A stretch of DNA of 64,000 bases from Candidatus Siliceabacter maunaloa. GTDB lineage: Bacteria; Actinomycetota; Thermoleophilia; Solirubrobacterales; Solirubrobacteraceae. Of the stretch, positions 31,434 to 44,779 are shown one piece after another. The position numbers and the translations under genes are program-made. Location: NCBI GenBank assembly GCA_024330185.1, contig JANDLV010000008.1, forward strand, positions 1-64,000, in the 5' to 3' direction. Within the stretch, counting starts at the first letter, position 1; the number at the start of each line of letters is the position of its first letter. Below the pieces are notes generated by a model. That model searched no databases, was not told where the DNA came from, and worked only from the letters and a program-made list of their open reading frames with translations.

Positions 31434-32189
31434 GTGTCTTACACGGTCGCCCGCAAGGCGCTAGCGGATCGCCAGCCGATCATCTCGATCGACTGCAAGA
31501 AGAAGGAGCTGGTCGGTGATTTCAAGAACGCCGGGCGCGAATGGCGGCCCAAGGGCGAGCCCGAGCTCGTGCGCGTGCACGTCGGGATCGATCACGACAC
31601 CGCGCAGTTCGCGGTCAACTCGACGATGCGCCGGAACTGCAGATCACGATCGGGGTGCTGGCGCCCCTCCCTGGTCTTCGCGTTGGCTTGCAGGCTGTAG
31701 CCCAGCGACCGCAGCAGCTTCGCGACCGTCACGTACTCGACCTGATGACCGCGCTCGCGCAGCCCGCCGGCGAGATGACGCACGCTCTTTGAGGTCCACA
31801 ACAACAACGACTCCGGGTCCCCGCGACGGTCCTCGTCAACGAGCCGCTCGAGATCGACCAGCAACTTCGGATCGGTCTCGCTCAACGCCTTACGTCCACC
31901 GCCCGGCTTGCGGACCCGCCCCGCCCCGATCGACTCCCCGCCCTCAAGCTCACCGATCCCCCTTACGGATCGTGTCGACCGCCATCCCCGTCGTCCGCGC
32001 CGTCGCAGCGATCCCGCCACGCCCCGCGGCGATGGCCTCCGATGCCGCCCACAACCGCCGCTGACGCTCGTTGAACTCACCCGCCAACGCACGGAACTTC
32101 ACGCCGATCACAACCTCGTCAACCACACCCCCCAGATTCGACGCCGCGAGCAGCCGAAACTGCTGACCTATTTATGAACAAGCCCTAAC
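31434..32189. mobile_element. Rearranged ISAzo13-family transposase relic
   Basis: Two pieces of one transposase point in opposite directions. On the plus strand, 31438-31620 encodes ADRQPIISIDCKKKELVGDF and then VRVHVGIDHDTAQFAV; compared with the copy at 43.9-44.8 kb it lacks the intervening DFPDKKLGKAVPYG-type segment. On the minus strand, 31622-32092 encodes the N-terminal part: KPGGGRKALSETDPKLLVDL, LLWTSKSVRHLAGGLRERGH and LRSLGYSLQANAKTREGRQH. The pieces meet near 31621. A terminal sequence GGGCTTGTTCATAAAT (minus strand, ending at about 32186) resembles an IS end and is flanked by TAA. Nothing here can encode an active enzyme. Confidence 0.75.
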
Positions 32190-32330: not shown

Positions 32331-32639
32331 TCACGGTGTAGCCGAAACCTCGCGCGCGACCTCGACAAGCGCGTGTGCCTTCACGTCGCTGATGTACCGG
32401 AAACAGTCGGCTACTTCGGGTATATTCGAGGCACCTTGGGCGGCCGCCTCGGCCCGCTCACGGCTCTCCCACACGAGCACGTCCGTCCACTCCTCGCCGC
32501 CGAGCGGGGCGAGCCGAGCGCTCACCAAGCCGGGGAAGCTCGCGGCGAGCGTCGTGATCGCGCGCTCCCACGCGTCCAACAGCCCCCGCTCGTCCTCGGA
32601 GCGAACGGTGAACTGACTCACCTCAAGCGCCTCGGACAC
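32331..32639 (-). CDS. ABM-fold (antibiotic biosynthesis monooxygenase-like) protein
   Basis: A 102-aa protein of the dimeric ferredoxin-like ABM fold: VSQFTVRSEDERGLLDAW, FPGLVSARLAPLGGEEWTDV, LVWESRERAEAAAQGAS and ADCFRYISDVKAHAL. Members include cofactor-free monooxygenases and haem-degrading enzymes; the catalytic type cannot be told here. GTG at 32639 is chosen because GGGAGG sits 8 nt upstream; an in-frame GTG at 32648 touches that site. It begins 61 bp after the ligase gene and is the probable last gene of the island operon, with tailoring of the pathway product as the plausible role. Confidence 0.72.
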   Translation of the reverse strand: MSEALEVSQFTVRSEDERGLLDAWERAITTLAASFPGLVSARLAPLGGEEWTDVLVWESRERAEAAAQGASNIPEVADCFRYISDVKAHALVEVAREVSATP

Positions 32640-32700
32640 GGCGAGCACCTCCCGAATCGACCAAACGGCTCGATCAACGCATTGCGCTCTTCAGGCGAGG

Positions 32701-34089
32701 TCATGAAGCCAAAGGGACAAAGCGCCTGAGTTTACCTGTCTGACCATGGCGATCGATGCGATCGACGACCATGATATTCACCGCCGGATGTCGCAAGCCA
32801 AGCCCGTCCAAGATCTTCTCGATCCTCTGAGTCAAATCTGGTCCAATTGCGGAGTCGGCCCGCACGACGATGTCGACGCCGCTGCACGACTGGCGCACCT
32901 GATATTCGATGATAGCGCGCGCCTCGGTCAGCACCGATCGAAACACTTGGGGGTGTACCACAACCCCGCCCTGGTAACAAAAGCTGTCATCGAGACGCCC
33001 CTGAATGTGGCCAATACGTCGCCCAGTCCATGGTCCAGGATTAGGTTCCTCGAGAAACATCACCTCGTCGGTGATCTCATAGCGTATTATCGGCAGTACG
33101 CTGTTGACCACGTTCGTCACAAAAACGCGGTCGGCTCGGTCTCCGGGCAATACTGGGCGTCCTTCAGCATCCACTGGCTCGATCACGCTGAGGTCTTCGG
33201 CTATGACTAGGCCGGGATTGACACCATCAGAGGCGGCAAGGGTTCCCACCTCTGTCGCCCCCCAGATGTCGCAGATCGTGGCACCGAATGCAGTCTGAAG
33301 AAGGGCTTCGCTCTCCGGCAGAAGGGGCTCGCCAGCGGTCATGATCTGTATTGGCCGGGCATGGAGGCGGCCAGCGAGCTTCTCTACTGCAAGCGCATGA
33401 AGCGTCGACGGATAGCTTCCCAGCATCCCTGGGTCGAGGTCGTTGAGCGCACTCACCAAGCTCGGCAAGGGCTCATGGGGCGAAAAGAGGTGGATTGGAT
33501 TTTGCGCTTGCGAAAAGCAGTAGATGGCTGCAGCCGAGCCATGCACCGGACTAGCCGCACCGATTCTTGCCGTGGCCAGTGAGCCGGCCAGGATGGGCAC
33601 GCGGGCGTTGCCGCCCACATTGGCGGCCAGCCAGCCGGCAAAGTCCCAGACCATGACCGCTCGGTGGCCGGTCGAGCCTCCGGTAGCCATTACGTGGTAC
33701 TCGTCGAGCAGATAGGCTGGTTCGCCACCCTCAAGGAAGTCGAGGTGAGAGAATGCCATCTCTAGAGAGAGACGTCGATCCGTGACAATGTCGTCCCAGT
33801 GGGTCATCAGATCCGCTTTGGTCATTGGCGGCACGGAGGTGAGGTCCCCTCCACTGAGAGTCTCGGTATCGACGTGAGCGAGTCGCTCGGCGTGCCAGGG
33901 CGAGTGGACCTTGGCATGGTGGACCAGCGCGCGCAGCCGCTCGTCCCGCAGAGCCCACAGCCGGCTCAGCGGCCAAGTCAATTTTTCCACCTCGCTCGGC
34001 ATGCGCGCCTGGAAGGCTTGCACGTGGCGCTGCCGTTTGAGCTCGTAGTCGTCGCGCCCGGCTTCGACGTCTCTTCGCGGGTCGCTCAC
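32701..34089 (-). CDS. AMP-forming acyl ligase (phenylacetate-CoA ligase/CapK-like)
   Basis: A 462-aa adenylate-forming enzyme of the PaaK/CapK branch. The phosphate-binding loop is VMATGGSTGHRAVMVWD, the aromatic-Gly-x-T-E motif is DIWGATEVGTLAASDG, the hinge Asp region is GHIQGRLDDSFCYQGG with VVVHPQVF, and the C-terminal catalytic Lys is in GQTGKLRRFVPL. It should activate a carboxylic acid as acyl-AMP and pass it to CoA, an amine or another acceptor. GTG at 34089 lies in a GTGA overlap with the methyltransferase stop. There is no carrier protein gene nearby, which argues against a standard NRPS loading step. Confidence 0.85.
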   Translation of the reverse strand: MSDPRRDVEAGRDDYELKRQRHVQAFQARMPSEVEKLTWPLSRLWALRDERLRALVHHAKVHSPWHAERLAHVDTETLSGGDLTSVPPMTKADLMTHWDDIVTDRRLSLEMAFSHLDFLEGGEPAYLLDEYHVMATGGSTGHRAVMVWDFAGWLAANVGGNARVPILAGSLATARIGAASPVHGSAAAIYCFSQAQNPIHLFSPHEPLPSLVSALNDLDPGMLGSYPSTLHALAVEKLAGRLHARPIQIMTAGEPLLPESEALLQTAFGATICDIWGATEVGTLAASDGVNPGLVIAEDLSVIEPVDAEGRPVLPGDRADRVFVTNVVNSVLPIIRYEITDEVMFLEEPNPGPWTGRRIGHIQGRLDDSFCYQGGVVVHPQVFRSVLTEARAIIEYQVRQSCSGVDIVVRADSAIGPDLTQRIEKILDGLGLRHPAVNIMVVDRIDRHGQTGKLRRFVPLAS

Positions 34090-34889
34090 GGCATCTCCGC
34101 CGACCAGGTGCCCTTGACAGCTACGCCCAAGATCAGCGCTCCACCGCCCAGCCAGTGCCAACGGATCAAGCGACGGTCGATGGCAGTGGCCAGACGGTAG
34201 TACCAACGCACCCCAGGTATCGTGCGAGGCACCCCGAGGCTTCCTAGGAGCATCGTCGTTGCCAGCGAGCGCCAGCAAAGCGTCCGGGGCAGCGCCTCGC
34301 GCAGCTCCCCGCGGGAAAGCGGGCGCTCATGGGCGGATTGCCCTCCCTCGAGCGGTGGTGTGGCGGGCGCCAGTCGAGCCAGCAGTCGCTCGAGCGGCCC
34401 GAAAGCCCAGTCCGCGTAGTCCGCGTTCGGCTCCCTCACCACCAGTACCCCCCCAGGGCGGACGACACGTGCGGCCTCTGCAAGAACCTCCGGCCAATCG
34501 GGCACATGATGAAGCACCCCGCTACAGACGACTGCGTCGAACACGCCGTCCTCGACGGGCAAGTGTCGGGCGTCCGCTTGGATTAGTGTGCACCGGTCCA
34601 GCGGCAGCTTCTGTGCCGCAACTCGCAGCATGCCCGAGGAGTGATCAACCCCGACGACGGTGCGCCCCGCTGCCGCCAACGCCTCGCTCACTCGTCCAGT
34701 ACCACAGCCGACGTCGAGCACTACGCCTGCGGTCAGCGAGACTATCGCCGGAAGGATCCAAGCCTCCGCTGAGCGAAGGGGCTCCTCCTTGACGTAATCG
34801 TCGTAACGGTCTGCCTGCGCGTCGTGCGAGGCGCGATCATTTCGCGTTATGTCCTCGACCTGCTGACGACTCTCACGGGTCACCGTCAT
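34086..34889 (-). CDS. SAM-dependent class I methyltransferase (island operon)
   Basis: A 267-aa methyltransferase of the UbiE/Methyltransf_11 type. Motif I is VVLDVGCGTGRVSEALAAAG, followed by GVDHSSGMLRVAAQKL, DARHLPVEDGVFDAVVCSGV and HHVPDWPEVLAEAARVVRPG. A C-terminal extension of about 100 residues has a hydrophobic stretch (LATTMLLGSLGVPRTIPG) and ends with GGGALILGVAVKGTW. ATG at 34889 forms ATGA with the upstream gene and the stop forms GTGA with the ligase gene. Substrate unknown; the operon suggests methylation of the peptide or acid product. Confidence 0.88.
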   Translation of the reverse strand: MTVTRESRQQVEDITRNDRASHDAQADRYDDYVKEEPLRSAEAWILPAIVSLTAGVVLDVGCGTGRVSEALAAAGRTVVGVDHSSGMLRVAAQKLPLDRCTLIQADARHLPVEDGVFDAVVCSGVLHHVPDWPEVLAEAARVVRPGGVLVVREPNADYADWAFGPLERLLARLAPATPPLEGGQSAHERPLSRGELREALPRTLCWRSLATTMLLGSLGVPRTIPGVRWYYRLATAIDRRLIRWHWLGGGALILGVAVKGTWSAEMP

Positions 34890-35956
34890 GGCGGCGCGAC
34901 CACCGAAGTAACAACGCCTTCGAACCACGCACGGTCCATGCGCGGGCCGGCACTGGTCAACAGCAGGCCTCGGACGCCGCGAGTTTCATCCTGCCAGATT
35001 GCCTCGTGCGGGCCGAATCGATGATCGACGAAGGCGACCTCCACTCCGTCGCCGTTGGGTATCACCGTGTCGAAGGTGCAAGGGTGCGCTTCAGTCCGAG
35101 ACGGTAGGTCGATTCTGCCACAACCGGCCCACTGGGCCACAATGCGCACCTCGCGTCCTCGATACTCGCCGCTCGTAAAGAGCACTTCGACCTCCCTGGC
35201 GTCGCCCGTGCTACCGAACAACGCTGCCGAATCGAAGCGAAAGCCCGAGGGGGACTGAAGGTCGAGTCTGGGCATTCCCCACGAGCCGACGACGTCCTGA
35301 TCGTCCGTCCAGATGTAGGTCTCATCCTCAGGACGCCGGAAGCGGAACAGACCATGCGGCGGATCTACGAGGCGCGGACGGAACCGGGCCCAGTAGCTGA
35401 GCCGAGCAAAGCTTTGCTGCCCCAGCAGAGCCAGATGCGTCGGAGAAACCGGCTCTAGTGTCCGATAGAGGGTGACGATCTCCTCGTCGGAAAACGTGCC
35501 TGCGAGGACTGACAGCTCGCAGGACGTTCGGTAGATACGAGCATACGCCCCCCGGTGCCCCATGTAATCGGTGCCGAGCCATACGACGTAATCCGGGTGA
35601 ATCGGTTCCGCCCAAGTCGGTCCGCCCCACAGGCATGGTTGGTCCGCCGCCGCGGGCGCCCAGTCGTATAGGAACTCCTTGACGCGGAGCTTACGGCCCT
35701 TCCCCGCGATCTCGAACCGATAGGAAGATGGGTTCCCCTCGCTCCACGGTGATCGACTCCCTGCAGAGCCAGCCGGTCGTCCCGGGCAGCACTCCGGCCT
35801 TAGCGTCTGCGTCACGATCGTGGTTTCGGGCGGCAGCCCTCGCGGGACCAGCACCGGAAAGTTGCACCAGACTTGCGCCTCATCCGCGGCCATAGGTGTG
35901 ACCCTCGCCTCCGGCGAGGTGGGGTCCTTGACCGTCCGAGGCTGCCAGTCGCTCAC
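34886..35956 (-). CDS. Unrecognised 356-aa protein of the island operon
   Basis: No family is recognised with confidence. The protein is soluble, with no signal peptide or membrane helix, and rich in Trp, Arg and Pro. The first half contains SYRFEIAGKGRKLRVKEFLY, a DWAPAAADQPCLWGG segment and SCELSVLAGTFSDEEIVTLY, which resembles the short beta-alpha units of DUF4245/DUF4367-like domains. The second half has a similar beta-rich rhythm (LDLQSPSGFRFDSAALFG, GREVRIVAQWAGCGRIDLPS). Six or so cysteines are scattered (WCNF, ECCPG, PCLWG, AGCGR). GTG at 35956 overlaps the binding-protein stop by 4 bp and ATGA couples it to the methyltransferase. It could be a binding partner or a new enzyme. Confidence 0.8.
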   Translation of the reverse strand: MSDWQPRTVKDPTSPEARVTPMAADEAQVWCNFPVLVPRGLPPETTIVTQTLRPECCPGRPAGSAGSRSPWSEGNPSSYRFEIAGKGRKLRVKEFLYDWAPAAADQPCLWGGPTWAEPIHPDYVVWLGTDYMGHRGAYARIYRTSCELSVLAGTFSDEEIVTLYRTLEPVSPTHLALLGQQSFARLSYWARFRPRLVDPPHGLFRFRRPEDETYIWTDDQDVVGSWGMPRLDLQSPSGFRFDSAALFGSTGDAREVEVLFTSGEYRGREVRIVAQWAGCGRIDLPSRTEAHPCTFDTVIPNGDGVEVAFVDHRFGPHEAIWQDETRGVRGLLLTSAGPRMDRAWFEGVVTSVVAPP

Positions 35957-37641
35957 GGTGCGACCGCGTGGTGACGGATGCGGAAGCTTGCGAAGTCGAA
36001 AACGTTGGCGACGCCGCCTAGGCACCGTCCGCCCTGCCACCTGTCACGGTAGTTGAGGTAACTTACCTTACCAGGTACGAACAGGTGGGTTTGGTGGTGG
36101 ATCGCCAGTGCGGCGAGCTCGCGATAGCAGCGGTGTGCTTGCACGGCAGACTCGGCGTGGCGCGCTTCACTGACCAACCGATTGGCGCCCGGAAGGCGAA
36201 GGCCGAGTTTGGCAGGCAGCAGCGAATCTTCTGCGAGAAGTTGAGATGCGAAGGTGTAGGGATCTGGGTAGTCAGCGTCCCAGCCAATCCACGCTATAGG
36301 ACAGCGGGCTGCGTACAGCAAAGACACTAGCCTGCCTAGCGGTAGCGCCCGAACAGTCATACGACAGTCTGGGAAAAGCGAGCTGAAGCCCGCGGCGTGA
36401 ATCTGTGCGGCGCGCATCCTGGCGTAGTTCCCAGCGTGGGTGTAGGCGACAAGCCTCACGCCGCCCCTCGTAACGTCGCCATTCCACGCTCTGGCCAAGT
36501 GGAAACGCGCTCTGTCGAGATCGAAGCAGAACTCGGGCACAGGGCCGTCAGCCAGCGAGGGGCGTGGGAACGGGCCATAGTGTTCAATTCCTGGACCGCA
36601 CAGGGCCTCCTCACAGAACGAGCCATGGTCGAAGCAGAAAGCGAGAGCGAGGCGAAAGTCGCGGTCCGACAGAGTATCCGGACGCATTCCCTGGCCATCG
36701 AAGCGGGCAGACCCCACCGCTTCGCATTGCTTGTTCAGCTTGTATGTCAAAAAGCCCAAGGGATTCACATGCCACTCATCTGGGTCCTCCTCGAGAAGCA
36801 GATTGGGCACGTCGCGTATACGTCGCAGAGACTCGGGCTGACAGATAGCCACGTCGCTGTACCCGCGAGTGAAAGCGGTTTCCCGCTCGATTCGGTCATC
36901 CTCCGAGACGAGCTCGACCTGCTTTGCGGCCGGTAGTTGGCCCCAGTAGCGTTCGTTTCGCCCGAACCGAACCACGCGCTTCTGCCGGTTCCAACTCTCC
37001 AACCTAAAGGGGCCCGTCCCGTTGGTCCGCGCTCGAAGAGCCGTCTGCTCGGGGAACAGGTAGTCCTCAAGACTTTCAGGTGTCCCGTCCCATTCGCCTT
37101 GAGCCACAGCCCAGTCCCGACGGAGAACCAGTGACCAATTGGCAAGCAGCGCGATGAACGGCGCGAACGGCTCGGCCAAGGTGACGGCCACGGTCGAGCC
37201 ACGCAGCTGAATTCGATCGAGTGCTGGTGCGATGTCGCTACCGACGGGCGCGGCCACTCGTCGACCCAGCAGTGCCTCCAGCCAGAGTGCCGAAGGACCC
37301 TGAGCGGTCACGATGGTTCGCCTGAGCGAATAGACCACGTCCGTCGGAGTAATCACATGACCGCTGTGGTCGCAGATATCCGCGCGTATCGCCACCCGAT
37401 ACTCGACCTCACCGCCCGTGATGGTCCTCGCGGTAGGCAGTTTGGCGGCTAGCCAAGGGAGCAGGCCACCTTGGCGAGGGCGGTAACGCACTAACGGCTC
37501 GTAGACATTCAACACGACATGTCTACTGCTGCTGTCGTAGGCAGCGTGGGGATCGCACGTCACAGGATCGTCGAACACTCCGATCGTGAGCTTCGGGCAA
37601 TCGCTGGTGGCGAGCCCTACTTCGTCGTCAAGCGCCTTCAT
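35953..37641 (-). CDS. SBP_bac_5-type oligopeptide-binding-like protein without signal peptide
   Basis: A 562-aa member of the family 5 solute-binding proteins (DppA/OppA fold). Family features: LTIGVFDDPVTCDPHAAYDS near the start, LNVYEPLVRYRPRQGG, GTGPFRLESWNRQKRVVRFG, RNERYWGQLP, DRDFRLALAFCFDH and GWDADYPDPYTFASQLL. The N-terminus (MKALDDEVGLATSDCPKLT) has no signal peptide or lipobox, and no ABC permease or ATPase gene is in the window. The protein is therefore probably cytoplasmic and would bind a peptide or peptide-like intermediate rather than serve import. ATG at 37641 overlaps the SUMF1-gene stop (ATGA). Confidence 0.87.
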   Translation of the reverse strand: MKALDDEVGLATSDCPKLTIGVFDDPVTCDPHAAYDSSSRHVVLNVYEPLVRYRPRQGGLLPWLAAKLPTARTITGGEVEYRVAIRADICDHSGHVITPTDVVYSLRRTIVTAQGPSALWLEALLGRRVAAPVGSDIAPALDRIQLRGSTVAVTLAEPFAPFIALLANWSLVLRRDWAVAQGEWDGTPESLEDYLFPEQTALRARTNGTGPFRLESWNRQKRVVRFGRNERYWGQLPAAKQVELVSEDDRIERETAFTRGYSDVAICQPESLRRIRDVPNLLLEEDPDEWHVNPLGFLTYKLNKQCEAVGSARFDGQGMRPDTLSDRDFRLALAFCFDHGSFCEEALCGPGIEHYGPFPRPSLADGPVPEFCFDLDRARFHLARAWNGDVTRGGVRLVAYTHAGNYARMRAAQIHAAGFSSLFPDCRMTVRALPLGRLVSLLYAARCPIAWIGWDADYPDPYTFASQLLAEDSLLPAKLGLRLPGANRLVSEARHAESAVQAHRCYRELAALAIHHQTHLFVPGKVSYLNYRDRWQGGRCLGGVANVFDFASFRIRHHAVAP

Positions 37642-39092
37642 GAACGTCCCACGGCTTCCGCGACGCATCCGTCTGGCCAAGGCCGCTGGTCCGCCGGTCG
37701 CGGGCAGTCACAGACGCAGCGGAAACCGTTTTCGAAATGACGGTCAGTCAACAGGTCACGTCCCCGGAAGGCCACGGAGGTCAGCTCGGGGAGCGAACTC
37801 CACGTGCCACCACGGATCACCGGATAGGAGCGCCAGTCATAAACAACGTCTAAAGCGTCCCTCTTGCCGACGTCTGGTTCGAGGGCGTTGCGCGAGAAGA
37901 AACTAGAAGCTGTCCATTCCCACGCATTGCCCGCCATGCCGCAGACCCCGAAAGGGCTCACGTTGCCCGCATCGTCAACTGGCACCGTCAGCGTCGCGCT
38001 GAGATCTTCGTTTAGCTCCAGAAGACGGGACCGCCACGCGGTTATGCTGCTTGGACTGCCCCCGAGCACGTCGGAGTGGCACCGCACCTGAGACGGATCG
38101 AAGGCATCGCCCCATGGGAAGACACGATCGTCGTCGCCCTGGGCGGCGCGCTGCCATTCACCCTCCGTGGGAAGCCTCTTGCCAGACCAGGCGGCAAACG
38201 CGTAGGCCTCGAACCAGTCCACCCCTGTGGCTGGGTGGCGGGTCTGAAATCGGAGGTCCAAAAGCGTGTTTCTGACATGAAGCTTGCCCGGTGGTTCGCT
38301 GGGATGGCACAACGCGTGACTCCGCGCCGCTTCCGTAGCCGCAAACTCGTCGTACTCAGCCACAGTCACTTGGTGAGCATCAATCCAGAATCCCGCGACA
38401 GCCGTGGACCAAGGTTCCTGCACATCCGACCAATCGAAGACGCGGGACAGTGCAGCAAGCCCCGGCGGAACCGCGAAGCGCACCTTTCCTTCAGGAATGA
38501 ACAACATCCCCGAGTCATCATGCTGAGGATGCGCGACAGACGGCGGTGGGGGTGATGGCTCGACAAAGCTTGTGGGGAACTCGTGGGTGCCATCGAAGAG
38601 TCGGGATTCGATGTCGCCGAGGACCTCGGTGTCGTCGGTCCCCACGATTCGGACGATGGCGTTCAAGACCATCGCGTGGCCTATGCCGACTGGCTTCCCG
38701 GCTTGAGTCCTCAACCGGTCGCTCGCACTGCCCACGAGCAGCAACAGGTCACGAAGCGCGCCCTGAACGCGGAGGTCGCCAGCGAGACGGATCGCTTCAA
38801 ACGCGACGAAATCCTCGGGATCGTGGGTGAGCCACGTGACTGCGGCTGACACCTCGTCCTCGTTGACCTCGACAAATTGGCTGAGTCTCCCCAGTACCGT
38901 GCGGCGAACCCAGGGGTCAGGGTGCATGGCGGCGACGCCGCAAAGCTCTCCCACCTCTCCCGATGTCGGCCTGCTCGCTGTGATGAGTCGTTGTAGTTCA
39001 TCCAGCCGGTGCCGGTGGGTCTCCGTATCGGAAGGTTGAAGATCTGCAGGAGCCGGGAAATCGTCTAGAAAGGAAGTGATGCGCGTGATCAA
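37638..39092 (-). CDS. HEAT-repeat/SUMF1-domain fusion protein
   Basis: A 484-aa two-part protein. Residues about 35-165 look like HEAT repeats (HPDPWVRRTVLGRLSQF, DPEDFVAFEAIRLAGDLRV). Residues about 195-465 form a SUMF1 (formylglycine-generating/EgtB-type) domain: GFWIDAHQVTVAEYDEF, HPATGVDWFEAYAFAAWSGK, RLPTEGEWQRAAQGDD, FGVCGMAGNAWEWTAS and the final VIRGGTWSSLPELTSVAFRG, GFRCVC. The two catalytic cysteines of true FGE should sit in the RGGSxxCxxxxC segment, but that segment here has W-S-S-L-P-E-L-T. Sulfatase activation is therefore unlikely. Only the TTG at 39092 gives full length, since an in-frame TGA lies just upstream. Confidence 0.86.
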   Translation of the reverse strand: MITRITSFLDDFPAPADLQPSDTETHRHRLDELQRLITASRPTSGEVGELCGVAAMHPDPWVRRTVLGRLSQFVEVNEDEVSAAVTWLTHDPEDFVAFEAIRLAGDLRVQGALRDLLLLVGSASDRLRTQAGKPVGIGHAMVLNAIVRIVGTDDTEVLGDIESRLFDGTHEFPTSFVEPSPPPPSVAHPQHDDSGMLFIPEGKVRFAVPPGLAALSRVFDWSDVQEPWSTAVAGFWIDAHQVTVAEYDEFAATEAARSHALCHPSEPPGKLHVRNTLLDLRFQTRHPATGVDWFEAYAFAAWSGKRLPTEGEWQRAAQGDDDRVFPWGDAFDPSQVRCHSDVLGGSPSSITAWRSRLLELNEDLSATLTVPVDDAGNVSPFGVCGMAGNAWEWTASSFFSRNALEPDVGKRDALDVVYDWRSYPVIRGGTWSSLPELTSVAFRGRDLLTDRHFENGFRCVCDCPRPADQRPWPDGCVAEAVGRS

Positions 39093-39330
39093 ATCAACCA
39101 GCTTTCTACTGCAGAATCACGGGAACGGCTCGATCATCGCGATTGCCGCTTCCCATCGCTATTTCCGCTTCCAGATGCCCTCGGGTTCGGCACGTTATGA
39201 CAGCGAGACAAAGCGCTGCCATAAACGGCTTCGGAGACGCGCGTTAAGTCGGCGGCGCAAGGACGCAATGCCGAAGCTCAAGGCCTCCCCACGCGCCCAT
39301 GCGCCCACCGAAACTAGCTCGCTCAACGTA
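39093..39330. other. Gap between the 26-codon gene and the HEAT-SUMF1 gene
   Basis: A 238-bp stretch inside the transcript predicted from 39455. A 43-codon minus-strand frame (39195-39326, TTG start) and several shorter ones exist but lack Shine-Dalgarno sites. No terminator with a T run is seen. It may hold regulatory RNA structure between the small gene and the enzymes. Confidence 0.4.
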
Positions 39331-39411
39331 CTACCACTTGGTGGCGGGCATGCGAAGAGCCGGGGTAATCCGCTCGTCCCTAGCCCGCTGCCACTGACGC
39401 GACCATGTCAC
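39331..39411 (-). CDS. 26-codon peptide gene, first gene of the island operon
   Basis: A small open frame in the operon direction with GTG at 39411 and TAG at 39331-39333. The peptide begins (M)TWSRQWQRARDER, continues ITPALRM and ends PATKW; it has three Trp, five Arg and no Cys. A perfect AGGAGGTGA lies at 39420-39428 with an 8-nt spacer to the GTG, and a sigma70-like promoter lies 50 bp upstream. Together these make translation very likely. It may be a precursor peptide for the downstream enzymes, with a C-terminal Lys-Trp as a possible site of modification. An alternative is a Trp-codon leader controlling the operon, as Trp codons stand at positions 3, 7 and 26. No family is recognised. 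Confidence 0.7.
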   Translation of the reverse strand: MTWSRQWQRARDERITPALRMPATKW

Positions 39412-39419
39412 GATTTAGC

Positions 39420-39428
39420 TCACCTCCT
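39420..39428 (-). promoter_or_regulatory. Perfect Shine-Dalgarno for the 26-codon gene
   Basis: Read on the minus strand the sequence is AGGAGGTGA, fully complementary to the 16S rRNA 3' end, with an 8-nt spacer (GCTAAATC) to the GTG at 39411. It is the strongest ribosome site I found in the window and fixes GTG, not the ATG at 39406, as the start; that ATG frame closes after eight codons. Confidence 0.8.
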
Positions 39429-39461
39429 CTCGTGCTTTGTCGTTGGCCAAGGGCAAACGCG

Positions 39462-39489
39462 ATCTTACCAACCTGGCACCTGGCGTCAA
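39462..39489 (-). promoter_or_regulatory. Predicted sigma70-like promoter of the island operon
   Basis: Minus strand: TTGACG at 39489-39484, a 16-nt spacer and TAAGAT at 39467-39462. Expected transcription start is near 39455, giving a short 5' leader of about 27 nt before the Shine-Dalgarno. The match to TTGACA is 5 of 6 and to TATAAT 4 of 6. It is the only such pair noticed upstream of the small gene. Confidence 0.55.
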
Positions 39490-39723: not shown

Positions 39724-40635
39724 GTGTCAGTGAAGTCGGAGGCCAAGGTCAAGCGACGTGCGAAGCGCGGTCGGCCGGGGTCGGTTGGGTCGGGCGCCGC
39801 GCATCGAGGTCGTCGCCGACGACGAGACGCTCACGCCGTTGGCGGTTCGGCGGTGGTCGGTGAGTTGGCGCGCCGCTTGGAGCTCATACCGGCGCTGGAT
39901 CGCGCGATCGAGACCGCCGCCAGGGTCGGCGGTCTGGAGGCGGTCAAGCAGCGCGCCCGGGGCTGCTCGCCGGGTCAGCTGCTGGTCACGGTCGCGGAGT
40001 CGATGCTGTGTGGTGGGGACTCGATGCTCGACCTCGAGCGCCTGCGTGGCGACCAGGCGGGCGCCGAGCTGCGCGCGGTGGGCGAGGTGCCGGCAGCGTC
40101 GACGGCGTGCCAGCTCGCCCAGCGCTATCGGCCCACGCATCTGCGCGCGGCCGAAGCGGCGTTCGCGCGCTGTGCCAACGCGATGGACGCCCAGATCGGC
40201 CGCGCCCCGGATGGGCCGGTGACGCTGGACTTCGACTCCACCGGCGTGGAGGTCTATGGGCGCCAGAAGAAGGGCACCGGGGTCAACTATCAGGGCCAGC
40301 TGGCCTACCAGCCGCTGCTGTGCTCGTGGGCCCAACGCGGCCGGCTGCTGGCCAGCGAGTTCATCGCGCTGCTGTGCTGCTGCCTGATCGAGCGCCAGCT
40401 GCGCAACGCGATGAACCGCGAGCAGATCACGCAGCTCCCGCTCTACCCCGAAGACCGCGCCTGCACCGCGCCGACCGCAGTCCGCATCTTCGACCACCTC
40501 GCCCCGCTCCAACGCCACCACCTGATCCGTGACGGCCAAGCAGTGCAGACCTTCGAACCGCAGCTCACACCGCTACAAGCGCAGCTACTGGACCTGCTCG
40601 GCGTTCCCGTCAGCGCCTACACCAGCAACCCCTGA
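39724..40635 (+). mobile_element. Chimeric transposase: IS1380-type N-terminus, IS1634-like C-terminus
   Basis: One open frame joins parts of two unrelated DDE transposases. The first two thirds are IS1380-like: KSEAKVKRRAKRGRPG, GCSPGQLLVTVAESMLCGGD, DLERLRGDQAGAELRAVGEV and VTLDFDSTGVEVYGRQKKGT with the catalytic Asp region. From about residue 210 the sequence becomes the C-terminus of an IS1634/IS4-like enzyme: FIALLCCCLIERQLRNAMNR, PLYPEDRACTAPTAVRIFDH and LTPLQAQLLDLLGVPVSAY. The switch is at LLAS-EFIALL. Near the start a pair of compensating shifts hides the normal segment APRIEVVADDETLTPLA. The product lacks a complete catalytic core and is a deletion fusion. Confidence 0.7.
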
Positions 40636-41050: not shown

Positions 41051-41554
41051 CTACCCGCTCGTGGAGTAGGAGAAGAGCCGCTCGGGCCCTATCTCGAGTA
41101 AGGCGACCGCCCAGTCGGGCGGATCGTAATAGCGCTCGCGCCAGCGGCGCTCGAGGCAGCCTCGAACTGTGTCCAGTGCTTCATCCTCGTGGATTCGCAC
41201 CGGCCCCTCAACCGTGACTGCGGTATGGGTGCGCGTCTCGTCACCGCCGGCTGTCACGTCCTCCATGACGACAAGCGACGCCCACGGAAGCGCACGGACG
41301 TTCCGCAGCCGGGCGCCGCGAACGGTGGCGACCCAGAAGCCGCCGTCTTCCACGAGGAACCCGACCGGTGCTGCCAAGGGCCGGCCGTCGGACCGCCCGG
41401 TAGCGAGGACCGCGTAGCGAACGCGCTCGAGAAACGACTGGAGACCGACGGCATCGAGCGCGCTTTCCTCCGGCCATGTGGTGCGAGGAGGATGTGCGTT
41501 GGCATAGCTCCGCCGCTGTACTTCCGCCAGCGTCTCCGCGTCTTTCGTCCTCAT
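41051..41554 (-). CDS. Pyridoxamine 5'-phosphate oxidase-like split-barrel protein
   Basis: A 167-aa FMN-binding split-barrel protein (PNPOx/PPOX-like). Typical strands are RYAVLATGRSDGRPLAAPVG, GFLVEDGGFWVATVRGARLR, NVRALPWASLVVMEDV and VTVEGPVRIHEDEALDTVRG. Family members bind flavin or F420 and reduce varied substrates; which one cannot be told. It is the only apparently intact single gene in the right half of the island and has no operon partner: IS fragments flank it on both sides. Start ATG at 41554. Confidence 0.78.
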   Translation of the reverse strand: MRTKDAETLAEVQRRSYANAHPPRTTWPEESALDAVGLQSFLERVRYAVLATGRSDGRPLAAPVGFLVEDGGFWVATVRGARLRNVRALPWASLVVMEDVTAGGDETRTHTAVTVEGPVRIHEDEALDTVRGCLERRWRERYYDPPDWAVALLEIGPERLFSYSTSG

Positions 41555-42419: not shown

Positions 42420-43445
42420 TCAGCGGGCCCCCGGCGGTTGGTGTTGGTCGCGCTGCTTGCGATGGTAGGCGATTCGGCGTCGGCGGGCGCGGTAGAGGCC
42501 GGCGCGGCGTGTTCGACGGATCTGGGGTCCGCGGCCTTGGTGTTCGTCGTCGGGGGTGACGTAGCCGATTCCGGCGTGTAGGCGCACGGTGTTGTACTCG
42601 ATGCGGACGATGGCCAGCTCGGCGCGCAGGACGGCGGGGTCGGCGATCGCTTCGAGGTGGGGCCAGTCGGCCTTGATGTGGCTGAACAGGCTCTCGATCC
42701 AGGCCTGGTCGGTCGGGGTGCCCGGTCGCCCGAAGTGCTGGGCGATCGCGCACATGGCCATGAACTCGCGCGTGGACCCCGAGGTCATCTGGGGCCCGTT
42801 GTCGCTGACGGCCAGCAGCAGCGGGCGGGCGGGATGGTCGAGGGTGGGGTCGGCCAGGGCGTCCTGACGGGCCTCGACGTGCTCGAGCAGCCCCTCGATC
42901 GCCAGCGCGTCGGTGAAGGCGACCTGGACCTGGGTGGTGGTCTCCTCGCCCGAGACGACCTCGCAGATCCACTTGCGCGTCACGAGGTCCATGACGGTGA
43001 TCACCGCGACGCGGGGGCAGGCGGTGAAGCGCGTCGTGTCATAGATCCAGATCGAGTTGGGCTCGTAGTCGGCCCAGTCGGGAAACGGGCGGCGCTGCGA
43101 TCGCCCGGCCCGCCGGGGCCGACGCAGAATGAGGCCGTGAGCAGCCAGAACGCGGCGGACCGTGGCCGGCGAGACCCACACCAGCCCTTGGTAGGAGCCG
43201 CGGTGAGCGAGCTTGCGATGCGAGCGGTCGATCTCGCCCCACGCCTCGAACAGCGCGATGATCGCGTCCTGCTCGCAGGCCAACAGGCCGTGCACCGCAT
43301 GCCCGCCGGGCCCAAGGTCGGCCAGGGTGCCGTCTGCGCGGCGCTGATGCCAGCGCCACGCCCTGGCCTCACCCAGCTCGAGGTAGGCGCAGGCGCGGCG
43401 GTGCCCCCAGCCCGCCGCTGTGGCCTCTTCGATGAGCTCCAGCAC
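42420..43445 (-). CDS. IS3-like OrfB integrase-core transposase
   Basis: A 341-aa DDE transposase. The HTH_21-like N-terminus (WGHRRACAYLELGEARAWRW) is followed by the rve core: YEPNSIWIYDTTRFTACPRV with the first Asp, VSDNGPQMTSGSTREFMAMC with the second, and GTPTDQAWIESLFSHIKADW with the Glu. In the family OrfB is made by -1 frameshifting from OrfA, and the frame is indeed open upstream of the ATG at 43445. Since orfA is broken, a functional fusion protein is doubtful although OrfB itself is intact. Confidence 0.82.
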   Translation of the reverse strand: MLELIEEATAAGWGHRRACAYLELGEARAWRWHQRRADGTLADLGPGGHAVHGLLACEQDAIIALFEAWGEIDRSHRKLAHRGSYQGLVWVSPATVRRVLAAHGLILRRPRRAGRSQRRPFPDWADYEPNSIWIYDTTRFTACPRVAVITVMDLVTRKWICEVVSGEETTTQVQVAFTDALAIEGLLEHVEARQDALADPTLDHPARPLLLAVSDNGPQMTSGSTREFMAMCAIAQHFGRPGTPTDQAWIESLFSHIKADWPHLEAIADPAVLRAELAIVRIEYNTVRLHAGIGYVTPDDEHQGRGPQIRRTRRAGLYRARRRRIAYHRKQRDQHQPPGAR

Positions 43446-43931: not shown

Positions 43932-44779
43932 ATGGGCCATCAGGTGTCTGATCACACCGTCGGCAAGCTGCTGCGCGGACTGGGCTACCGGCTGCAGGCC
44001 AACCGCAAGACGCGCGAGGGCAGCGATCATCCCGACCGCGACCGGCAGTTCGAGCACATCGACCAGACCGCCCGGACGGCGATCGCCGCGGGCCAGCCGG
44101 TGATCAGCGTCGACACCAAAAAGAAGGAGCTCGTCGGCACCTACAAGGCGATCGGGCGCGAGTACGAGCCCGGCGGCAGGCCGGTCGAGGTCAACACGCA
44201 CGACTTCCCCGACAAGAAGCTCGGCAAGGCCGTGCCCTACGGGATCTACGACCTTGCCGGCAACGAGGCGTTCGTGTCGGTCGGGATCAGCGCCGACACC
44301 GCCCAGTTCTCGGTCGCCAGCATCCGCGCCTGGTGGCAGCACCTCGGCCGCGAGCGCTACCCCGACGCCACTCAGCTGACGATCACCGCCGACTGCGGCG
44401 GCTCCAACGGCAACCGCACACGCCTGTTCAAGGTCGAGCTGCAGCAGCTGGCCGACGACACGGGCCTATAGATCGAGGTCTGCCACTTCCCGCCCGGCAC
44501 CAGCAAGTGGAACCAGATCGAACACCGCCTGTTCTCGCACATCGGCCAGAACTGGCGCGGACGGCCGCTGACCAGCTACGAGGTGATCGTCGACCTGATC
44601 GCGGCGACCACGACCACGACCGGCCTGAAGGTCTACGCCCGCCTCGACGAACACGAATACCCAAGAAGATCACCGCCACCGACCAACAGCTCACCGACGT
44701 CAAGATCGCCCGCCGCGACTGGCACCCCGAATGGAACTACCTCATCACGCCCCACCAGCACAACGGACCCGACCCTTGA
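43932..44779 (+). pseudogene. ISAzo13 transposase, C-terminal part with stop and frameshift
   Basis: Continues the interrupted transposase: LQANRKTREGSDHPDRDRQF, QPVISVDTKKKELVGTYKAI (first catalytic Asp), NTHDFPDKKLGKAVPYGIYD and TQLTITADCGGSNGNRTRLF (second Asp). A TAG at 44469-44471 stops it. Reading on gives IEVCHFPPGTSKWNQIEHRL, containing the usual catalytic Glu region, and after another shift at about 44655 KKITATDQQLTDVKIARRDW and the end at 44779. Nonfunctional. Confidence 0.8.

Follow-up and report, generated by a model that had tools for sequence, protein, structure and literature searches.

We analyzed a 64,000-nucleotide stretch of DNA from Candidatus Siliceabacter maunaloa (contig JANDLV010000008.1, positions 1 to 64,000; hereafter, the window), in which an operon begins with a 26-codon frame whose product ends in Lys-Trp (KW) and continues with the gene of a protein that combines HEAT repeats with a SUMF1-type domain (HEAT-SUMF1). 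Biosynthesis of a ribosomally synthesized and post-translationally modified peptide (RiPP), or biosynthesis on a scaffold peptide, of a new class is the probable function of this operon. Quite likely, the operon was gained by horizontal transfer and belongs to a class of RiPP or peptide-scaffold pathways not yet described, in which HEAT-SUMF1 acts at the Lys-Trp end. Among the evidence for this reading is the constant association of such a frame with HEAT-SUMF1 genes across genomes.

A Short Lys-Trp Frame Accompanies HEAT-SUMF1 Genes

Relatives were collected in two ways. A profile of P3, the product of the third large gene of the window operon, was run against 84,980 species genomes and gave 35 P3 loci; SUMF1 protein searches added further loci from plasmids and genomes. 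P3 relatives (40%) on two Streptomyces plasmids lie in operons that hold a HEAT-SUMF1 gene 32% identical to that of the window, and immediately 5' of this gene stands an unlisted frame, MSDRDFIETRDAKQECSKW. HEAT-SUMF1 operons occur in Actinomycetota and Alphaproteobacteria; the non-duplicate ones number 35, the window counted, and form 22 groups at 90% and 16 groups at 80% SUMF1 identity. The preliminary description of this DNA had expected homologous operons to be headed by a short frame with K-W at its end, and such a frame, ending in KW or in KW plus two residues, was found in 34/34 of the other operons, so that a conserved short open reading frame (ORF) with a ribosome-binding site beside an enzyme gene, a feature by which RiPP loci are recognized, is present in 35/35. 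The frames of L060 and L061 were judged by eye owing to a weak Shine-Dalgarno sequence or start, the start in L061 (...QIVKW) being uncertain. The peptides include MTYGSQWEKAASARSLKKRLPDADKW from a S. xanthophaeus plasmid, MTAEDFLGSREAGEAATKW from the S. clavuligerus megaplasmid, MKTLRQWNALRSQRKGGVRPAGSHFKWAA from S. coelicoflavus, and MTDAQFLETREDEEVTKW from Actinoallomurus, as well as a 40-mer of Stappia with IAEKW at its end, and the KW-plus-two forms ...NTKWEG and ...TTKWEA in two genomes of the Streptomyces family.

When a 4-base Shine-Dalgarno match was demanded, 29 KW frames were counted in 1.79 million strand-bases, and 29/29 precede a HEAT-SUMF1 gene. When the upstream regions were dinucleotide-shuffled, 6/2880 gave such a frame. 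As controls, 42 SUMF1-fold loci on viral contigs, matched by the SUMF1 part of the query but not by its HEAT part, yielded three KW frames over a total of 0.48 million strand-bases, none of them in leader position (one on the wrong strand, two inside the gene by position). No KW frame was found when looked for at the HEAT-less close SUMF1 relative (L062/L066) or at the second SUMF1 locus of the window's own genome. Because the non-HEAT control loci have no KW frame in leader position, the frame is tied to HEAT-SUMF1 and not to SUMF1 proteins at large, and its presence in 34/34 other operons is much easier to reconcile with a ribosomal-peptide pathway than with a frame arisen by chance. The constant core of these operons is the peptide and HEAT-SUMF1, often with P3. 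The KW peptides tested matched no NCBIfam model, and the plasmid gene tables examined, which are incomplete, have no entries for them.

A Variable Leader and a Constant Lys-Trp

The nearest relative of the window SUMF1 protein (48%), encoded on the Streptomyces xanthophaeus plasmid (L048), likewise has a peptide gene ahead of it, and the peptide is again exactly 26 residues long. Nine residues of the two peptides agree without gaps, and the similarity of their inner parts, Met and KW excluded, was reached in 46 of 100,000 shuffles. The SUMF1 tree joins the window and L048 (99/96), both with 26-residue peptides, and its clades follow peptide type, with a KWAA group, the alphaproteobacterial 40-mers, an FxxTRD group, and the window/L048 pair, in a tree that has long branches and unsure deep joins. 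Since the tree groups by peptide type, the leader varies with the enzyme and Lys-Trp stays constant. An invariant Lys-Trp core behind a clade-dependent leader is a further hallmark of RiPP loci, and suggests that the peptides are built as leader-core precursors. In the family of 19-residue peptides, the ratio of nonsynonymous to synonymous change (dN/dS) is about 0.5 over pairs.

Between the peptide and the enzyme, most operons carry a hairpin of 12-18 bp, usually directly past the stop codon, and in most relatives tested only 0-1 of 100 shuffles were as good. The short frame might be a regulatory leader, as the preliminary description had proposed as its second hypothesis, with stalling at Lys/Trp codons controlling transcription or translation of the enzyme genes through the downstream hairpin. 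Both the position of the hairpin and the number of Trp codons in the window peptide (three) and the L048 peptide (two) speak for such control, but most peptides hold a single Trp, as the last or third-last residue, and the residues at their front show conservation at the protein level (FxxTRD) and differ from one SUMF1 clade to another. Moreover, the frame tracks the HEAT-SUMF1 gene across very different downstream pathways, a T run rarely ends the hairpins, and no Rfam match was obtained. A Trp attenuator in particular is disfavored by the mostly single Trp, by the lack of an Rfam match, and by the absence of a terminator-like site between peptide and SUMF1 gene in the window. We thus regard a regulatory leader as unlikely.

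The HEAT-SUMF1 Protein

The SUMF1 protein of the window shows an FGE-sulfatase domain match (3.7e-44) and a sub-threshold HEAT_2 match; its C-terminal half has the FGE-sulfatase fold, with CalU17, EgtB, and the formylglycine-generating enzyme (FGE) as best solved relatives. FGE acts on a short peptide motif. Although the two share the fold, the window protein has an extra HEAT domain, no sulfatase is encoded in the operon, and both copper cysteines are absent, just as the preliminary description had read from the sequence; in the alignment RGGTWSSLPELTSVAFRGRD stands where FGE has its two-Cys motif, and FGE membership was rejected because the copper-binding Cys pair is missing. The C-terminal fold is also shared with the sulfoxide and selenoxide synthases EgtB, OvoA, and SenA, whose DinB domain carries the iron ligands, whereas the window protein has HEAT repeats in place of DinB and lies far under the NCBIfam cut-offs (75.9 bits vs 420 for SenA, 73.5 vs 360 for EgtB), for which reason EgtB/SenA membership was rejected as well. 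CalU17 of calicheamicin is the best solved-structure match and ToxD of toxoflavin is among the structure matches, both from natural-product clusters, but the matched chains have no HEAT domain, and to our knowledge neither is accompanied by a KW peptide.

Residues conserved in the HEAT-type proteins include HPD (263-265) and TDRHxE (449-454), which may contribute to a site for metal or substrate; TDRHxE is missing from the second SUMF1 copy of L010 and from the HEAT-less relative. In Stappia, the SUMF1 gene shares an overlap with the gene of a CobW-type metal chaperone, which hints that HEAT-SUMF1 is a metalloenzyme. A second, diverged SUMF1 gene lies within the operons of L010 (15607-16947, TDRH motif lost), L049 (11138-12502), and L050 (10616-12406), and possibly encodes a partner subunit.

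That peptide and HEAT-SUMF1 always occur as a pair would be expected, too, of a two-part protein, in which the peptide serves without modification as a small subunit or activator, Lys-Trp is a docking tail, and the HEAT-SUMF1 protein acts on another substrate; CalU17 and ToxD are SUMF1-fold proteins of pathways for which we know of no peptide substrate. However, KW may be followed by two further residues, and in most operons the hairpin separates the peptide gene from the enzyme gene, which suggests a dosage differing from 1:1, so that this alternative is quite unlikely.

Comparison with Known Peptide Pathways

RiPP pathways resemble these operons in the short ribosomal precursor ahead of an enzyme gene, the variable leader and fixed core, the tailoring genes, the exporter present in many relatives of the window operon, and the hairpin behind the precursor gene. 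They differ in that no RiPP class enzyme was recognized here, the constant enzyme being HEAT-SUMF1, for which no link to RiPPs was found in open-access papers; these searches, in which subscription-only reports may be missed, likewise found no description of KW peptides or of a RiPP role for SUMF1/EgtB-type proteins with such peptides. The asparagine-synthetase-like RiPP enzyme PesC of the nitrilobacillin pathway, which acts on Asp-Asn termini together with MNIO enzymes (PMC13060819), has a counterpart in the AsnB-like gene of Streptomyces KW operons, but this gene is not in the window operon.

Chemistry on the C-terminal Trp of a short peptide, as proposed here, has a precedent in the pearlins (BhaA/BhaC1, ammosamide): BhaC1 acts on the C-terminal Trp of a scaffold peptide, whose front segment is required (PMC9850906). 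In the window operon, by contrast, the Trp is gene-encoded after Lys, and neither a peptide aminoacyl-tRNA ligase (PEARL) nor a BhaC1-like flavoenzyme was recognized. A pearlin-like pathway, with the encoded peptide as carrier only and another enzyme appending further amino acids, would share the short peptide and C-terminal Trp with the Bha pathway, but it is very unlikely given the encoded Trp and the fact that no PEARL/LanB-like gene was recognized in the loci examined. PF04738 had no match in the window's genome, nor in the control genomes, so this search had no positive control. Finally, a chance origin of the 26-codon frame, whose exact sequence comes from a single genome and which starts with GTG, is effectively refuted by the cross-genome KW test and the shuffles.

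A Putative Pathway

We lean toward a class of ribosomal natural products that is new and is marked by two things, a gene-encoded Lys-Trp core and an enzyme of HEAT-FGE fold whose chemistry is not known for that fold; the class would have spread horizontally in Actinomycetota and Alphaproteobacteria and diversified by swaps of downstream tailoring genes. In such a pathway, the short gene would be translated into a 26-residue precursor ending in Lys-Trp, a step well supported by conservation. The N-terminal HEAT part may then hold the variable leader and place Lys-Trp in the FGE-fold domain, which would modify it, probably by a metal- and O2-dependent oxidation or bond formation without a copper-cysteine centre. 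Operon-specific enzymes would tailor the Lys-Trp piece: in the window, the methyltransferase, AMP-forming ligase, ABM protein, and P3; elsewhere, proteins of metallo-beta-lactamase (MBL) fold, asparagine-synthetase-like enzymes, pyridoxal phosphate (PLP)-dependent aldolases, aldehyde dehydrogenases, PNPOx proteins, and phytanoyl dioxygenases. A protease would release the piece, and a transporter, of the major facilitator superfamily (MFS) in many relatives, would export a small Lys/Trp-derived compound, while the cytoplasmic binding protein of the window operon (SBP) may serve as a carrier, either for an intermediate or for the product.

Several points weigh against this proposal. Peptide, product, and reaction are predicted here from the genes, and the role of the FGE-fold domain might be limited to binding the peptide. 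In some operons the peptide extends two residues past KW (WEA, WEG, WAA), so that Trp need not be the reacting C-terminus. Neither a dedicated protease nor a known RiPP enzyme was recognized; for the window operon, no known RiPP enzyme is among the Pfam/NCBIfam matches, no search being aimed at RRE models, and no MFS gene is present. The structure model of the SUMF1 protein is of modest confidence (pLDDT 68), and the 11-bp hairpin of the window, matched by 13/100 shuffles, is not significant.

If the proposal holds, the rule of a HEAT-SUMF1 gene with an upstream frame ending in KW and a stop codon finds a family of overlooked biosynthetic pathways, one of them on the megaplasmid of the industrial Streptomyces clavuligerus. 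The FGE/EgtB fold would gain a role in peptide maturation other than that in making formylglycine, Lys and Trp being the residues acted on, and the products may be small molecules of a new kind derived from Lys/Trp.

Signs of Horizontal Origin

P3 was found in none of the other 200 genomes sampled from the window's order, and a HEAT-SUMF1 gene in none of the other 248 genomes sampled from its class, and because these searches gave no second copy the operon looks acquired. Its GC content is 0.61-0.67, vs 0.71-0.75 outside the island, and whole or broken transposase genes (ISAzo13, IS1380, IS3-like) flank it on both sides. Together, these are signs of an acquired island of horizontal origin. The SUMF1 gene was found in no phage record.

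Downstream Genes in Related Operons

The preliminary description also led to the expectation of an identical five-gene order elsewhere, which did not turn up in the loci searched. The genes for SBP, the AMP-ligase, and the ABM protein have no relatives in any fetched locus, SBP and AMP-ligase having only generic relatives on plasmids, and they are not conserved partners; the window methyltransferase is weakly similar to that of L048. Although conserved KW frames agree with the ribosomal-peptide hypothesis put forward earlier, its suggestion that the binding protein holds the peptide cannot be general, because SBP is without relatives in the fetched loci. That this protein is cytoplasmic was borne out by the lack of a hydrophobic signal peptide.

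Downstream sets in Streptomyces, Kineosporia, and Thermomonospora comprise MBL fold, esterase, AsnB-like, P3, aldehyde dehydrogenase, GntG aldolase, and PNPOx genes; S. xanthophaeus has MFS and methyltransferase genes; S. coelicoflavus has phytanoyl dioxygenase, a second SUMF1, MFS, and PNPOx; and Stappia has MBL, CobW, P3, and PNPOx. PNPOx is joined by MFS in L063 and L064, and by a methyltransferase in L065. The S. clavuligerus operon (L051; NZ_CP065235.1, about 430033-438134), with the KW peptide and HEAT-SUMF1 at its head, continues with a class II aldolase, a luciferase-like monooxygenase (LLM) flavin enzyme, two PLP enzymes, PNPOx, and a P450, and is apparently an overlooked cluster in an industrial strain. 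At L049/L050 and at L004/L007, two different KW operons lie in plasmid neighborhoods with FAD monooxygenase, hemG-like, and glutamine-hydrolase genes in common, and look as though they had been plugged into the same larger cluster.

P3 matches no Pfam or NCBIfam model. Its predicted structure is mostly beta and confident (pLDDT 88), a fold search against solved structures (PDB) gave no usable match, and hhalign gave no support for two copies of one domain. Many KW operons include P3, but some do not, and haloarchaea and a few bacteria have P3 as a solitary gene. It was rejected as the defining gene because it occurs by itself in haloarchaea, Chlamydiae, Brevibacterium, and Actinoalloteichus, and those of their genomes that were searched lack HEAT-SUMF1. 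On haloarchaeal chromosomes and plasmids (L005, L006, L034-L040), the solitary P3 genes represent a confidently folded, unnamed family.

Layout of the Window Operon

The operon consists of the 26-codon frame and six larger genes down to 32331 (Table 1). The preliminary description had it correctly as a one-strand operon with a promoter-like site, a strong Shine-Dalgarno sequence, and the short frame; its domain calls (SUMF1, peptide-binding, methyltransferase, AMP-ligase, ABM) are supported by Pfam/NCBIfam, those of ligase and ABM under the cut-offs, while its title list of genes, right in those it named, omitted P3. The five large genes said to be joined by overlaps are so joined, at four exact junctions (SUMF1/SBP, ATGA; SBP/P3, GTGA; P3/methyltransferase, ATGA; methyltransferase/AMP-ligase, GTGA). 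The ABM gene has no such overlap and probably starts at GTG 32639, following the Shine-Dalgarno sequence GGGAGGTG and ~61 nt past the ligase stop. Promoter-like sites in the region number 2, vs 1.0 +/- 1.1 in shuffles, which taken alone is weak evidence. Since PNPOx genes recur in KW operons, the PNPOx gene of the window is possibly a detached operon member.

Table 1. Features in and around the KW operon of the window.
Feature	Position	Strand	Basis or remark
Promoter-like site, sigma-70-like, TTGACG-16-TAAGAT	39489-39462	-	Consensus match only
Shine-Dalgarno GAGGAGGTGA	39429-39420	-	Strong; 8 nt 5' of GTG 39411
26-codon precursor-like peptide MTWSRQWQRARDERITPALRMPATKW, Lys-Trp end, GTG start	39411-39331	-	Sequence and same-length relative in L048
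11-bp hairpin between peptide and SUMF1 gene	39195..39224	-	Weak
HEAT-repeat and SUMF1/FGE-sulfatase protein, 484 aa, TTG start	37638..39092	-	Domain search
SBP_bac_5 oligopeptide-binding-like protein (SBP)	35953..37641	-	Pfam SBP_bac_5, 5.9e-32
P3, third large gene, no Pfam/NCBIfam name	34886..35956	-	
Class I S-adenosylmethionine (SAM) methyltransferase	34086..34889	-	Methyltransf_11
PaaK-like AMP-forming acid ligase	32701..34089	-	Partial NCBIfam matches, under cut-offs
Small ABM-fold protein	32331..32639	-	ABM match slightly under Pfam cut-off
F420/PPOX-type (PNPOx) oxidoreductase	41051..41554	-	Past transposase remnant; weakly similar to L051 PNPOx, E 2e-4
IS1380, ISAzo13, IS3-like transposase remnants and copies	39724-40632, 31595-32092, 42423-43445, 43932-44468		

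A 28-codon frame, MTSPEERNALIEPFGRFGRCSPCPRRLR, at 32618-32704 on the minus strand overlaps the AMP-ligase stop by ATGA and terminates inside the ABM gene. A 32-nt imperfect repeat (75%, minus-strand core GCGWTGATCGAGCCGTT) lies at 32649-32680 and 39109-39140, shortly 5' of the ABM and SUMF1 starts.

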